From assembly GCF_022637395.1 (NCBI RefSeq), contig NZ_CP093337.1, forward strand, positions 372,001-436,000: 64,000 nt of DNA, written 5' to 3'. The stretch comes from Shinella sp. H4-D48 (lineage in GTDB: Bacteria > Pseudomonadota > Alphaproteobacteria > Rhizobiales > Rhizobiaceae). The notes beneath the pieces were generated by a model. That model ran no database searches. It was not told where the DNA came from and saw only the letters and a program-made list of their open reading frames with translations. A program made the translations under genes and the position numbers. Shown in pieces: positions 1,940 through 17,753 of this stretch. The first letter of the stretch is position 1, and each line of letters opens with the position of its first letter.

Positions 1940-3200
1940 CCACGGCTTCGACCATGCAATCGCGGGAGGACGCGCGCAGGCAGCCATCCCGCCGGCACCG
2001 CCGCTGGCCCATCCGCCGGCAGATTTGCGCATTGCCGTCGGCCGCGCCGGGCGCTCGCTCGCGCTCTATCCGGCGGCAGCCGGCTATGAGCTTCAGCAGG
2101 AGCTCGATTTCCTGTCGAACCGCGTGATGGAGCCGAATGTCTTCTTCTCCGGGCGCTTTCTGGCGCCCGCCATGCCGCGGCTGGAAGATCGTACCGTCCG
2201 CCTCGCCATTATCAGGGACGAAAGCGCGGAGCGCAGCCGCATCCGCCTGCTCATGCCGTTTTCCGTCGAGAAGCCCGGCTTTTCCATCGGCTCCAGCATC
2301 CTGCGTGCCTGGTCCAATCCGTTCGGCCCGATCGGCACGCCGCTCGTCGATGCGGAAGATGCGGCCGAGACGCTAGACAACTTCCTGGAGGCGCTCGGCG
2401 GCTCCGGCGTGGCGCTGCCATCGGTGCTCGTCCTGCCGGACCTGCGGCTCACCGGCCCCTTCGCGCAGCTGATGCGCGCCGTCGCGATTGGCCGCAACCT
2501 GCCGGTGACCGTGACCGACACCTATCGGCGCCCGATGCTGGAAAGCCTGCTGGACGGGCAGACCTACCTTCAGAAAGCAATCTCCCCGGAGCATTTCCGC
2601 GAGCTGCGGCGACAGTGGCGCAAGCTCGATCGGCTCGGCGCGCTCAGCTACAATGTCGCCCGCCAGCCTGCGGATATCCGCGTGCGCATGGAGGAGTTCC
2701 TCCTTCTCGAAGCCTCTGGCTGGAAGGGCCGCAGCCGCACGGCGATGATCAACGACCGCTATCGCGCTGCCTTCGCCCGCGAGGCTATCACGAATCTCGC
2801 CGAGACAGACGGCGTGCGTATCCATACGCTCGATCTCGACGGTCGCGCCATCGCGTCCATGGTCGTCTTCCTGATGGGGGGCGAGGCCTATACGTGGAAG
2901 ACGGCCTATGACGAGGAGTTCGCGAAATATTCGCCCGGCAAGCTTCTCCTTGCCGAGTTGACCGAATGGCATCTGGACGACGCCAATATCCTGCGCTCGG
3001 ACTCTTGCGCCGTGCCGGATCATCCCGTGATGAGCCGGTTCTGGGAAGAGCGTGAGGATATGGGCACGCTGGTCGTGGGTCTTCAGCAGAACCGGGACCG
3101 GGATGTGCGGCAGGTGGCGACGCAGCTGCACCTCTACCGCAACACCCGCAACGTGGCGCGGCTGCTGCGCGAGAAGATCCGGTCTCTCGCCCGGCGATAG
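1929..3200 (+). CDS. GNAT/FemAB-like acyltransferase (BioF2 / CelD-type)
   Basis: The 423-residue soluble protein resembles the BioF2-like acetyltransferase family (Acetyltransf_6) found next to bacterial cellulose and exopolysaccharide genes. The C-terminal half carries the GNAT-like fold region (residues about 220-370), including FRELRRQWRKLDRLGAL and a conserved AYTWKTAYDEEFAKYSPGK segment, the strongest family signature. The ATG at 1929 sits inside the last codons of the flippase (11-bp overlap); an upstream TTG at 1908 is possible but less likely. It probably acylates a sugar or lipid-linked intermediate handled by the neighbouring flippase, but that role is inferred from context. Its stop lies 1 bp from the stop of the convergent acyl-CoA synthetase. 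Confidence 0.75.
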   Translation: MTDSHGFDHAIAGGRAQAAIPPAPPLAHPPADLRIAVGRAGRSLALYPAAAGYELQQELDFLSNRVMEPNVFFSGRFLAPAMPRLEDRTVRLAIIRDESAERSRIRLLMPFSVEKPGFSIGSSILRAWSNPFGPIGTPLVDAEDAAETLDNFLEALGGSGVALPSVLVLPDLRLTGPFAQLMRAVAIGRNLPVTVTDTYRRPMLESLLDGQTYLQKAISPEHFRELRRQWRKLDRLGALSYNVARQPADIRVRMEEFLLLEASGWKGRSRTAMINDRYRAAFAREAITNLAETDGVRIHTLDLDGRAIASMVVFLMGGEAYTWKTAYDEEFAKYSPGKLLLAELTEWHLDDANILRSDSCAVPDHPVMSRFWEEREDMGTLVVGLQQNRDRDVRQVATQLHLYRNTRNVARLLREKIRSLARR

Positions 3201-13208: not shown

Positions 13209-14138
13209 ATGGCCATTCTTCTTCTGGCAGACCACGACAACGCCACCCTTTCCGACCAGACCGCCAAGGCGCTGACGGCGGCTTCGCAGATCGGTTCGGA
13301 CGTGCATGTGCTCGTCGCCGGCGCGGGCGTCAAGGCGGCCGCCGACGCCGCTGCCAAGCTGTCCGGCGTCTCCAAGGTGCTCGTCGCCGACGATGCTAGC
13401 CTCGGCAACAACCTCGCCGAGCCTCTGGCCGCGCTCATCGTGTCGCTGGCCGGCAACTATGAGGCTATCGTCTCGGCCGCGACCTCGGTGGGCAAGAACG
13501 TGCTGCCGCGCGTTGCCGCCCTGCTCGATGTCGCTCAGGTCTCGGAAATCGTCGAGGTCATCAGTGCCGACACGTTCAAGCGCCCGATCTACGCAGGCAA
13601 TGCCGTTCAGACGGTTCAGTCGACCGATGCCAAGAAGGTGATCACCGTTCGCACGGCGTCCTTCACCGCAGCGCGCGAGGGCGGCAATGCACCCGTCGAA
13701 ACCGTCGCAGCGGCTGCGAATCCGGGCCTCTCCACCCACGTCAATGACGCGCTGTCCTCGTCTGACCGTCCGGAGCTGACATCTGCGAAGATCATCATCT
13801 CTGGCGGCCGCGCGCTCGGCTCGTCGGAGAAGTTCCAGGAAGTCATCCTTCCAGTCGCAGACAAGCTCGGTGCTGCCGTCGGTGCCTCGCGCGCCGCCGT
13901 CGATGCGGGCTACGCCCCCAACGACTGGCAGGTCGGCCAGACGGGCAAGGTCGTCGCCCCGCAGCTCTACATCGCTTGCGGCATTTCGGGTGCCATCCAG
14001 CACCTTGCCGGCATGAAGGACTCGAAGATCATCGTCGCCATCAACAAGGACGAGGAAGCCCCCATCTTCCAGGTCGCAGACTACGGCCTCGTCGGCGATC
14101 TCTTCGAGATCCTGCCGCAGCTCGAAAAGGCGCTCTGA
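13209..14138 (+). CDS. etfA: Electron transfer flavoprotein alpha subunit
   Basis: The 309-residue alpha subunit binds FAD. The C-terminal FAD domain shows [12 protein letters not shown], the [20 protein letters not shown] region and the near-invariant [18 protein letters not shown], followed by [20 protein letters not shown]. The N-terminal domain (residues 1-190) is the usual Rossmann-like half. GGAG lies 9 bases before the ATG. It is cotranscribed with etfB and followed by an intrinsic terminator 67 bp after the stop. Confidence 0.97.
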
Positions 14139-14205
14139 GCCGTCCGTGTGCCGTCTTTGCGACGATGATTTCACTGGAAATATCCGTCGCGTGCCTTTAT
14201 CAATT

Positions 14206-14239
14206 CACCGGGCCGGCTTGACCGGCCCGGTGTTTTTTT
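14206..14239 (+). terminator. Rho-independent terminator of etfBA
   Basis: A perfect 11-bp GC-rich stem (CACCGGGCCGG with CCGGCCCGGTG) closes on loop CTTGA and is followed by seven T. It is the strongest terminator in the window. Confidence 0.95.
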
Positions 14240-14284
14240 GCCTGGGCACTGGGCTCAGGCTGAAATAACGAGGCGATTGGCGCG

Positions 14285-15157
14285 ATGATCAAGAACGTCG
14301 GTATTGTGGGTGCGGGCCAGATGGGATGCGGCATCGCACATGTTGCTGCTCTTGCCGGATACAAGGTCCATATCTACGACCTGTCCGCCGAGCGGATCGA
14401 AGCCGGTCTCGCCACGATCCACGGCAATCTCGCCCGTCAGGTCTCGTCCGGCAAGATGTCTGACGAAGACCGGAAGAAGGCGCTGGCGCTCATCAAGGGC
14501 TCCACCGACGTGAACGATCTCTCGGATGCGGATCTTGTCATCGAGGCCGCGACCGAGGATGAGACCGTCAAGCGCAAGATTTACGGCCAGGTCTGTTCCG
14601 TGCTGAAGCCGGAGGCCATCCTCGCCACGAACACCTCCTCGCTGTCTATCACCCGCCTTGCCTCCGCCACCGACCGGCCGGAGCGCTTCATGGGTATACA
14701 CTTCATGAACCCCGTTCCGGTCATGAAGCTGGTCGAGCTCGTGCGCGGTATCGCCACCGAGGAAAGCACCTTTTCCGCCGCGAAGGAATTCGTCGCCAAG
14801 CTCGACAAGACCATCACGGTCGCGGAAGATTTCCCGGCCTTTATCGTCAACCGTATCCTGCTTCCGATGATCAACGAGGCCATCTACACTCTCTATGAGG
14901 GCGTCGGTTCGGTCGAAGCCATCGATACGGCCATGAAGCTCGGCGCCAACCATCCCATGGGCCCGCTTCAGCTCGCCGATTTCATCGGCCTGGATACCTG
15001 CCTGTCGATCATGCAGGTCCTGCATGACGGTCTCGCCGATTCCAAGTACCGCCCGTGCCCGCTGCTGGTGAAATACGTCGAGGCCGGCTGGCTCGGCCGC
15101 AAATCCGGCCGCGGCTTCTACGACTATCGCGGCGAAGTGCCGGTTCCCACGCGCTGA
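14285..15157 (+). CDS. 3-hydroxybutyryl-CoA dehydrogenase
   Basis: The 290-residue NAD(P)-dependent dehydrogenase interconverts acetoacetyl-CoA and 3-hydroxybutyryl-CoA (hbd / PaaH type). The dinucleotide fold GIVGAGQMGCGIAHVA is at the N-terminus. The catalytic histidine lies in GIHFMNPVPVMKLVE, and the C-terminal dimerisation domain contains DFPAFIVNRILLPMINEA and the terminal signature GRKSGRGFYDY. The position directly after etfBA suggests a role in fatty acid or PHB metabolism. Its last 27 bases, plus one base beyond the stop, are repeated exactly 1.47 kb downstream, on the far side of the sulfatase-like gene. Confidence 0.95.
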   Translation: MIKNVGIVGAGQMGCGIAHVAALAGYKVHIYDLSAERIEAGLATIHGNLARQVSSGKMSDEDRKKALALIKGSTDVNDLSDADLVIEAATEDETVKRKIYGQVCSVLKPEAILATNTSSLSITRLASATDRPERFMGIHFMNPVPVMKLVELVRGIATEESTFSAAKEFVAKLDKTITVAEDFPAFIVNRILLPMINEAIYTLYEGVGSVEAIDTAMKLGANHPMGPLQLADFIGLDTCLSIMQVLHDGLADSKYRPCPLLVKYVEAGWLGRKSGRGFYDYRGEVPVPTR

Positions 15158-15158
15158 G
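15131..15158 (+). repeat. 28-bp direct repeat, copy 1 (3' end of hbd)
   Basis: The 28 bp that end hbd, running through the TGA and one further G, recur without mismatch at 16603-16630. Sequence similarity stops abruptly on both sides. The repeat begins GGCGAAGTGCC and ends CACGCGCTGAG. Confidence 0.97.
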
Positions 15159-15243
15159 GCGTATAAAGCTTCGACTTCAGTTCTTTTGAAAGAATTCAAT
15201 GGTATCTCACGAGGACTAGGTTATTCAGTCTCGCGACGGTACT

Positions 15244-16584
15244 ATGACGGATATTTCTATCTTACCGGAAGAGCGCGGCGCGCAGCGTTTCATCGGACGT
15301 GGCGCTCTTCTGTTCGTGCTGATCGTCGGGCTCCTGCCCAATCTCTTTTTTCTTGTGGTGATGCCGTTCTTCATCGCCGAACGGTTGATTACGCCGTTGC
15401 TCTATGTGACTGCGGCGATTGCCGCACTCTTCCTGCCGCGTTTCGCAGTCTATGCTCTTTTCTTCATAATTGCCGTCATCGATCTCTGCCTTATCGTCAT
15501 GGTGGCTTTTCACCTGCCGCTTGCCCTGGCGATCGATTCCGTGCGGTATATGGCGACGATCGACGTATCGGCTTCCAGTTTCTATGTGGCTGTCATCAGT
15601 ATAAACCTCGCGTTTGCCCTGGTTTCTGCGTGGCTGTTCGATCGAAACCGCACCGAGATACAGTTGGCATCGCCGCTACCCGTGCTTCTTGTCGCATTGT
15701 CGCTCATGGCTGCGGACTTTCACTTCAACTTTCATTACTTCCCCAAGTCTACATCTGTTTTTGACAGCGCCGATTCCCAAAACGGGTTGAGTACCGACGC
15801 GGTCGCCGCGCGCGGCGGTAAGCTGCTCATCGTGATGGTAGAGGAGCTCGGTGCTTTTGCTGATCCTGCAGAGAAAAAAATTCTCAGCAGTAAACTGGAA
15901 AAAGCCGCCTCACACGCTGGTTACGCCTTCTCCAGTGGAACCACGCCTTATTCAGGCTCCACGACGGGTGCCGCGTCCCGGGAATTGTGTGGGCGCTGGG
16001 GTGATCATCGCGATTATATCGCTGGTGCCCATACGGACAATTGCCTGCCGAAACTTCTTCGTGAGCGGGGTTACGAGACTGTTGCCTATCATGGTTACAC
16101 GTCCGACATGTTTGAGCGACACACTTGGTACCCCAATATCGGTTTCTCGGAATTCCATTCCATGGAAACGATGGTCCGGGATGCGCCGATGCTGGCCGCG
16201 CGCCGTTGCGGCAGCGTTTTTCTCGGGTTGTGTGACAGCGATGTCGGCGCCTTGGTTCATTCCCGCCTACTTGAGCCGGGCGATAAACCGAAGTTTGTCT
16301 ATTGGCTCACACTCAATTCGCATGTGCCGTTTGTCGCGAAGGACCGGGGAGCGCTGGGTTGCCGCACTGGGACTTCGCCAATTACAAACGCAACAGTGTG
16401 CGAACTGACAGAATTGTGGGGTGATGTTTTCGATGCCATCGCGGTGATAGCGGCTGATACTCGTCTACCTCCTACAGATATTCTCGTCGTTGGAGATCAT
16501 CATACTCCCTTGTGGGAGCGGGCCGCGAAGGATCGCTTCACACTCGGTCTCGTGGACTGGTACATGCTGCGAAAGGCGTCCTGA
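15244..16584 (+). CDS. Membrane-anchored sulfatase-fold hydrolase/transferase (phosphoethanolamine-transferase-like)
   Basis: The 446-residue protein starts with about five transmembrane helices (residues 20-160) and continues into a periplasmic alkaline-phosphatase/sulfatase-fold domain. Metal and nucleophile sites are recognisable: Glu200 in MVEELG, the threonine nucleophile region GSTTGAASRELCG (Thr240/241) and DHH at 418-420 in VVGDHHTPLW. The architecture matches EptA/LtaS-type enzymes that move phosphoethanolamine or a similar headgroup onto lipid A or glycans. It is roughly 100 residues shorter than EptA, so the exact reaction is uncertain. The gene sits alone inside a segment bounded by 28-bp direct repeats and looks foreign by codon usage. 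Confidence 0.75.
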   Translation: MTDISILPEERGAQRFIGRGALLFVLIVGLLPNLFFLVVMPFFIAERLITPLLYVTAAIAALFLPRFAVYALFFIIAVIDLCLIVMVAFHLPLALAIDSVRYMATIDVSASSFYVAVISINLAFALVSAWLFDRNRTEIQLASPLPVLLVALSLMAADFHFNFHYFPKSTSVFDSADSQNGLSTDAVAARGGKLLIVMVEELGAFADPAEKKILSSKLEKAASHAGYAFSSGTTPYSGSTTGAASRELCGRWGDHRDYIAGAHTDNCLPKLLRERGYETVAYHGYTSDMFERHTWYPNIGFSEFHSMETMVRDAPMLAARRCGSVFLGLCDSDVGALVHSRLLEPGDKPKFVYWLTLNSHVPFVAKDRGALGCRTGTSPITNATVCELTELWGDVFDAIAVIAADTRLPPTDILVVGDHHTPLWERAAKDRFTLGLVDWYMLRKAS

Positions 16585-16602
16585 CCTATTTGTCAAACAG
16601 CA

Positions 16603-16630
16603 GGCGAAGTGCCGGTTCCCACGCGCTGAG
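16603..16630 (+). repeat. 28-bp direct repeat, copy 2
   Basis: Exact copy of 15131-15158, located 18 bp after the sulfatase-like gene. The sequence after it is the presumed original downstream flank of hbd and leads into the sulfate transporter operon. Confidence 0.97.
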
Positions 16631-16769
16631 CGGCGGAAGAATCCGTTAAAGCCTGCTTTCGGGGAAAATTGTTTCGCCTGCCGTGAGGCCCGCGACAGAG
16701 CCGTGTCTCGGATGCTCACCGGGCTGCCGGTATTGTCTGCCTCAATTCTTATTGCATTGGGGTGTTCAG

Positions 16770-17753
16770 ATGAAACGCATTCTCCTTCTCGGCGCGGCCC
16801 TTCTCGGTCTTGCCGCTCCGATTTCCGCGCATGCAGCCGACAAGCTTTTGAACGCCTCCTATGACGTTGCGCGCGAACTCTTTGCCGCGGAGAACGAAGC
16901 CTTCGTCAAGCAGCATCCGGGCATTACGATCGACCAGTCACATGGCGGCACGTCCAAGCAGGCGCGCGCCATCGTGGAAGGCCTTGAGGCTGATGTCGTG
17001 ACCTTCAACCAGGTGACGGATATCGACTTCCTCGTGAAGAACGGCTTCGTCGCCGAAGGCTGGCAGCAGAAGTTCCCGAACAATGCGTCGCCCTTCTACT
17101 CCTTCCCGTCCTTCCTCGTTCGCGCGGGCAATCCGAAGAACATCAAGGACTGGTCTGACCTTGCCCGCGACGACGTGAAGGTCATCTTCCCCAACCCGAA
17201 GACCTCGGGCAATGCGCGCTACACCTATCTGGCCGCCACCGCCTATGCCAAGGAAGCCTTCAACAACGATCCGGCCAAGGTCGAGGAATTCGTTACCAAG
17301 ATCTTCGACAATGTCCCGGTCTTCGACACGGGCGGTCGCGCGGCGACGACGACCTTTGTGGAGCGCGAGATCGGCGACGTGATCATCACCTTCGAGGCCG
17401 AGACCAAGTCGATCGCCAAGCAGTATGGCGAAGACAAGTTCCAGAGCGTCGTGCCGTCTGTTTCGCTGCTTGCGGAGTTTCCGGTCGCAATCGTCGACAA
17501 GGTAGCGGATGCCAGGGGCAGCCGTGACCTCGCAAAGTCCTATCTGGATTTCCTCTATGCGCCCGAGGGCCAAAAGATCGCCGCCGAATTCGGCCATCGC
17601 GTCCATGACGAAAAGGTCGCTGCCGAATTCAAGGACCAGTTCCCGGAAATCCGCCTAGTGAATGTCGATGACGTGTTCGGTGGCTGGAAGAAGATATCCG
17701 AAGAGCACTTCGCCGAAGGCGGCACGCTGGACAAAATCTACGGCAGCCGTTGA
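16770..17753 (+). CDS. Sulfate/thiosulfate ABC transporter substrate-binding protein
   Basis: The 327-residue periplasmic binding protein of the sulfate importer has a signal peptide MKRILLLGAALLGLAAPISA with cleavage after AHA. The mature part shows LNASYDVARELF, the Sbp/CysP signature DQSHGGTSKQARAIVEGLEADVVT and FPNPKTSGNARYTYLAA. These residues line the oxyanion site in the family. The ATG at 16770 follows GGGGTG. It is first in the operon sbp-cysT-cysW-cysA. A 10-bp hairpin after the stop probably lets the binding protein be made in excess over the permease. Whether it prefers sulfate or thiosulfate (Sbp versus CysP) cannot be told. Confidence 0.93.
   Translation: MKRILLLGAALLGLAAPISAHAADKLLNASYDVARELFAAENEAFVKQHPGITIDQSHGGTSKQARAIVEGLEADVVTFNQVTDIDFLVKNGFVAEGWQQKFPNNASPFYSFPSFLVRAGNPKNIKDWSDLARDDVKVIFPNPKTSGNARYTYLAATAYAKEAFNNDPAKVEEFVTKIFDNVPVFDTGGRAATTTFVEREIGDVIITFEAETKSIAKQYGEDKFQSVVPSVSLLAEFPVAIVDKVADARGSRDLAKSYLDFLYAPEGQKIAAEFGHRVHDEKVAAEFKDQFPEIRLVNVDDVFGGWKKISEEHFAEGGTLDKIYGSR

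Follow-up and report, generated by a model that had tools for sequence, protein, structure and literature searches.

How a single gene can come to lie between two exact copies of the end of its neighbour, and what such a duplicated gene end says about the way in which it arrived, is the question raised by one locus in the Shinella genome under study (G000). The locus is part of the window, the whole 64-kb stretch of DNA analysed here, and comprises hbd, the gene enclosed by the duplication and sbp (Table 1).

A gene enclosed by the end of its neighbour

The end of hbd, GGCGAAGTGCCGGTTCCCACGCGCTGAG, occurs twice in direct orientation with a spacing of 1472 bp. The two copies are identical at 28/28 positions, and the match breaks off immediately beyond either end of both, as the earlier note on this DNA had described. 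It is the longest exact direct repeat of the window, the runner-up having 19 nt. The 24-mer of the hbd tail is found exactly twice in the whole G000 genome, once in S. sumterensis MEC087 (G019) and not at all in the 19 other Shinella genomes. The hbd gene itself, for which a match was obtained in 59 of the 61 genomes searched, is left intact.

The two copies enclose one ORF of 446 codons, which bears out the single gene of the earlier note, and its statement that no recombinase is carried also holds. Neither a transposase nor a site-specific recombinase lies between the repeats, where the sole gene encodes a sulfatase-fold protein. No inverted pair of at least 14 nt was found at the segment ends, and Rfam at gathering scores returned nothing but two tRNAs for the whole window.

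Table 1. Features from hbd to sbp, in window positions
Feature	Position	Strand	Evidence or remark
hbd, 3-hydroxybutyryl-CoA dehydrogenase, intact, 290 aa	14285..15157	+	NCBIfam NF005715, 569.6 bits (cut-off 420)
Left repeat copy, 28 bp: terminal 8 hbd codons, TGA and 1 base	15131..15158	+	
Leader, hbd stop to gained gene	15159..15243	+	Similar in G019; not in the other 19 Shinella
Gained gene: helix run, then sulfatase-fold (LtaS/GacH-like) transferase domain (predicted), 446 aa	15244..16584	+	Pfam PF00884, AlphaFold2, PDB fold matches, low GC and codon index
Trailer of 18 nt, gained gene to right copy	16585..16602	+	G019 version shorter and different
Right repeat copy, 28 bp, running into ancestral downstream flank	16603..16630	+	Shinella alignments
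Ancestral hbd–sbp intergenic flank, common to other Shinella	16631..16769	+	
sbp, sulfate/thiosulfate ABC transporter substrate-binding protein	16770..17753	+	TIGR00971, 410.4 bits; adjoins hbd in the other 19 Shinella

Upstream of hbd, etfA (13209-14138) is 92.9% identical at the protein level between G000 and G019; its neighbours etfB and hbd reach 99.2% and 99.7%. In eight Shinella drafts (G006, G007, G010, G012, G014, G015, G016 and G020) the contig ends 200-780 bp upstream of hbd. The part of the window just ahead of hbd (about 14085-14285) holds a hairpin with a T run behind it, at about 14210-14238.

Distribution in Shinella and timing of the gain

In each of the 19 other Shinella genomes the hbd end occurs once, sbp follows directly and the gene is missing from this place, as the earlier note had expected of strains without the insertion. 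The gene is present at hbd in two of the 21 Shinella genomes, G000 (100%) and G019 (86%), and any protein match in four. The other two are G009, with two distant copies (43-44%) away from hbd, and G018, with broken homologue fragments, one of which contains stop codons (G018:C32:29843-30329; L036, L038). One of the G009 homologues (L077:2765-3784), on a contig of 6.8 kb, has an ORF for an ISL3-type transposase as its neighbour.

For 17 of these 19 genomes, the alignment extending into sbp has its first position at 16603, within their own hbd end; it starts at 16656 in G017 and at 16770 in G006. The right copy therefore joins the ancestral flank, and the left copy joins the new DNA. An rpoB tree built from 21 Shinella and two other genomes (23 in all) pairs G000 with G019 (bootstrap 100) and places the two amid Shinella that lack the gene; G006, G016 and G010 fall outside its main group. 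The insertion is thus a gain that left hbd intact, as the earlier note had proposed. The rpoB of G011 (L172) forms a very long branch, with 84% identity to G000; hbd of G011 is 97% identical at the protein level.

A single gain of the gene, in the common ancestor of G000 and G019, is most likely. The closest hbd tails among the other Shinella (G002 and G014) differ at three of 24 coding bases, and since both G000 copies agree with one another while the other Shinella tails have at least three mismatches, the duplication is probably younger than that split. The left tail of G019 equals that of G000 over 24 bases but ends in the stop TAG. Its right copy is shortened and degraded, what remains being ACGCGCTGA and, doubtfully, a few preceding bases, which means either that part was lost in G019 or that the G000 copy was evened out later. 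The original junction is consequently not readable in G019, and this counts against a neat interpretation of the repeat.

The two carriers also bear on whether the arrangement is an artefact of assembly, for which nothing speaks beyond the short exact repeat itself. The segment between the repeats has a single match in the G000 genome, within a large contig of 3.48 Mb, and the same gene occupies the same place in G019, so an assembly error does not account for the insertion. Even though the exact right copy exists only in G000, an artefact is extremely improbable.

Composition, selection and predicted function

The foreign composition suggested by the earlier note was recovered. The gene has a GC content of 0.550 and a GC3 of 0.611, compared with means of 0.634 (SD 0.021) and 0.769 for the 47 large ORFs in the window. 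Only one member of that set, which includes the gained gene and derives from a mechanical ORF list with possible spurious frames, has a lower codon index. In both carriers its GC content is eight points under that of the flanks; the difference ranges from -3.3 to +1.7 points in nine other homologues.

Comparison of G000 with G019 gives a dN/dS of 0.11 (NG86) or 0.13 (YN00), which indicates that the gene is maintained by purifying selection. Its dS by YN00 (0.61) falls inside the range of eight neighbouring genes (0.35-0.67), and its dS by NG86 (0.71) lies above theirs (0.24-0.40). We read this as a single gain followed by inheritance under purifying selection.

The protein matches the Pfam Sulfatase family (PF00884, E 5.4e-12). 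An AlphaFold2 model built from an 11-sequence alignment (pLDDT 81.8, pTM 0.82) predicts several helices, presumably membrane-spanning, followed by a mixed alpha/beta domain. A search of the PDB with the single sequence gave no match, and a profile search gave only one below E 0.1, LtaP (4uop, E 0.0094). Foldseek placed LtaP, LtaS and GacH at the top, with EptC and MCR-1 lower down the list. VIA-align returned Z scores of 20.2 for LtaP, 19.7 for LtaS and 18.9 for GacH (235-242 residues, 3.2-3.4 Å), and 19.4 for 3lxq, an uncharacterised Vibrio protein; sulfatases followed at about 16. Residues E200, T240, D418 and H419 are invariant across 11 homologues, and are, by analogy with residues of LtaS, putative metal ligands and a putative threonine nucleophile.

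On the structural model, the protein is a sulfatase-fold transferase, closest in fold to the phosphoglycerol transferases LtaP, LtaS and GacH (PDB 4uop, 2w5q and 5u9z), with which residues 181-446 share the fold (Z 18.9-20.2). The identity to these three is 15-17%, the host of the gained gene is Gram-negative, and the activity is one assigned by fold. The protein likely moves a phosphoglycerol-like group from phospholipid onto a periplasmic glycan or lipid. The earlier note had named a phosphoethanolamine-type transferase: the sulfatase-fold transferase stands, and the specific label gives way to the better-ranked folds. Phosphoethanolamine transfer would still be compatible with the fold ranking, in which EptC and MCR-1 stand lower.

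NCBIfam has no family for the protein, and PADLOC found no defence-system match. The family is rare in a class-wide sample, in which a homologue at E <= 1e-40 was present in six of 384 other genomes. Phage records contained no match to the gene, no relative was confirmed in viral contigs, and a plasmid search yielded two weak matches (28-30%) in Neisseria records, one of which was retrieved and carries no annotation at that stretch.

The same address in other genera

A sample of 394 Rhizobiaceae genomes contained 51 with a match at E <= 0.001, of which eight (G000 included) were strong and 43 weak. Homologues stand directly behind hbd, before tlpA-argH, in G137, G270, G323 and G363 of genus g118 and in G353 of genus g96, and are 46-50% identical to the gained protein. 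Outside the G000/G019 pair, five of the nine full-length Rhizobiaceae homologues adjoin hbd; those of G305, genome G118 and both copies of G009 lie away from it. Among the listed hbd matches, the gene is behind hbd in 4/7 g118 and 1/7 g96 genomes. Sixty further hbd loci, picked from the best hbd matches, contained no homologue of the gained gene within the stretches fetched. An sbp-cysT-cysW-cysA operon is present in 10 of these 60 stretches, and tlpA was not found behind hbd in five (L113, L119, L129, L135 and L136).

In a protein tree of 17 homologues, genome G118 groups with the G009 copies (support 100). The separation of G118, G009 and the class-level homologues from the hbd-linked copies and G305 receives a support of just 51; within the second set, the branching order is supported at no more than 30-44. 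The hbd-tlpA gap varies across Rhizobiaceae (L079-L138), being near empty or holding the sbp-cysTWA operon or assorted ORFs. These ORFs include PIN-type toxin-like and glutathione transferase-like ones, named from their translations only.

The shared address admits another history, in which the gene had long stood behind hbd, was kept in this lineage and was lost in the other Shinella, the repeat stemming from a later exchange with a gene-less Shinella that imported an hbd tail and the sbp side. Its position behind hbd in g118 and g96 and the deep divergence of the hbd-linked copies fit this account, which would nevertheless require several independent losses in Shinella. The low GC of the gene in both carriers, unlike the nine homologues elsewhere, argues against it, as do the right copy, which bears the carrier lineage's own hbd bases, and the adjacency of hbd and sbp in all other Shinella, with a junction alignable in 17/19. 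Long residence is therefore unlikely.

Elements with an integrase, such as genomic islands and satellites, can insert at the 3' ends of genes, where they duplicate the gene end and restore the target gene. The hbd locus has the duplicated gene end and the restored target in common with them, and differs in that it has no integrase, holds one gene only and shows no same-site repeat in the other loci examined. Integrase-mediated insertion would here mean that a small circular element entered an att site at the hbd 3' end with a recombinase that acted in trans or has since been lost. The direct repeat at a gene 3' end, the restored hbd and the single copy at empty sites would all be expected from such an event.

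The att-like mobile cassette proposed in the earlier note did not find support at other hbd loci. In 95 of them, from 91 other genomes, the longest exact match to the hbd tail within 3 kb behind hbd was 7-12 nt. When the own 28-mer of each locus was sought up to 6.5 kb behind hbd, the best hits had 9-13 mismatches, compared with 8-14 for control 28-mers internal to hbd, and zero mismatches were obtained in G000 alone; old, decayed copies of the tail would escape these repeat searches. Copies of the tail thus do not exceed the control at any of the 95 loci, even where other genes stand behind hbd. A targeted literature search, at the level of listings, found no report that names the 3' end of hbd as a target of insertion.

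As a check, the earlier note had proposed a search of other genomes for the cargo gene between other duplicated 3' gene ends. No exact or gene-end repeat of the 28-bp kind was found in 15 other homologue stretches (9 + 6). In L180 alone, from G770 of another family of the class, a direct pair of 22 nt and 91% identity (1289-1310 and 3021-3042) flanks a distant homologue and gives no clear reading when translated in both directions. The remaining pairs lie within one side, have one copy inside the gene or fall between ABC-transporter domains. The L180 pair is the one hint left of an integrase at work. Against such an insertion stand the recombinase missing between the repeats, the lack of tail copies at other loci, a repeat that matches lineage-specific bases and the negative searches of phage records and viral contigs. 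Insertion by an integrase is distinctly unlikely.

How the segment may have been joined

The gain, its phylogenetic position, the foreign composition, the purifying selection and the hbd-gene order in other genera are supported by the observations above. The joining mechanism and the donor are what we infer, and about even confidence is placed in a gene gain by hbd-anchored homologous and illegitimate integration in the ancestor shared by this Shinella and S. sumterensis. The donor DNA would most likely have come from a Rhizobiaceae bacterium outside the sample in which the gene follows hbd. The incoming DNA would have paired with the resident hbd through homology, and one end would have been resolved by homologous exchange inside hbd. 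At the other end, the DNA would have been joined illegitimately to the resident hbd at a point within the gene, 28 bp short of where the shared stretch finishes, and those 28 bp would have been left over as a second copy ahead of sbp.

The address is what this account explains. Because distant homologues share it, random insertion there would have little reason; since homologues elsewhere already lie behind hbd, sequence shared in the flank can account for the site. The repeat stops a single base beyond the hbd stop codon, at the point to which homology with an hbd-gene donor would extend, so that homology in hbd accounts for both the address and the end of the repeat.

These two features also bear on an alternative in which hbd was cut with long staggered ends that were filled in and then sealed by Ku/LigD end joining with a captured fragment in between, which would produce a 28-bp target duplication. 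Under end-joining capture the exact identity of the copies, lineage-specific bases included, needs no extra step, and the genome has two Ku matches. Such capture offers no reason, however, for the hbd address of homologues in two other genera or for a duplication that ends one base past the stop, and it appears unlikely.

Several observations count against hbd-anchored integration. No donor was found, the nearest homologues being about 50% identical, and none of the five genomes of two other genera with the hbd-gene order is near enough to be one. A left tail derived from the donor should differ from the resident right tail, yet the two agree at 28/28 positions, which calls for an identical tail in the donor, for a crossover within the tail or for a later conversion. 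The nearest hbd tails elsewhere belong to two g96 genomes without the gene (one mismatch in 24); the g96 carrier G353 has three. The last 36-nt window of hbd has a mean of 3.6 mismatches to g96 and of 5.1 to Shinella (18 of the 19 other genomes, G006 being omitted), which puts it closer to g96; four other windows behave likewise, so this likeness is not special to the tail. The excess of dS over neighbouring genes obtained with NG86 also speaks against hbd-anchored integration, and is absent with YN00.

A wider role for the locus is a tentative possibility: the gap behind hbd may be a recombinase-free exchange site in Rhizobiaceae, at which a rare transferase gene would be lost and regained across genera via hbd homology alone, with occasional gene-end footprints.

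Relation to known systems and significance

The joining favoured here resembles homology-facilitated illegitimate recombination (HFIR), for which the original paper is reportedly that of de Vries and Wackernagel (2002). Excerpts of two publications (PMC2884548, PMC6382021) describe for other bacteria an integration that combines homologous with illegitimate joining: as proposed here, one join is made by homology and the other is non-homologous, and foreign DNA is added without a recombinase. The cases in these excerpts come mainly from naturally competent species (PMC2884548, PMC6382021), which counts against this reading for Shinella. At the hbd locus the mechanism is deduced without a donor sequence, and a 28-bp exact repeat remains. 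A further likeness is offered by small variable segments with direct repeats, present like the hbd segment in some genomes and not in others, and PMC2884548 reports repeats around 10-18% of its variable segments. That work compares strains within species and small segments; the event at hbd is common to two species.

The gain at this locus is genuine, has clear boundaries and left a gene-end footprint; as an event it is of an ordinary kind, to which the shared address adds an informative twist. It looks like ordinary gene acquisition guided by a neighbouring gene rather than a new mobile element. It provides an example of a single gene that enters the chromosome with no mobile element visible, for which there are relatives with an empty site as well as distant homologues in the same position. 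A duplicated gene end alone is no evidence of an integrase, which tempers the att-site reading. For the organisms themselves, a rare transferase under purifying selection may change the cell surface of a small Shinella group.
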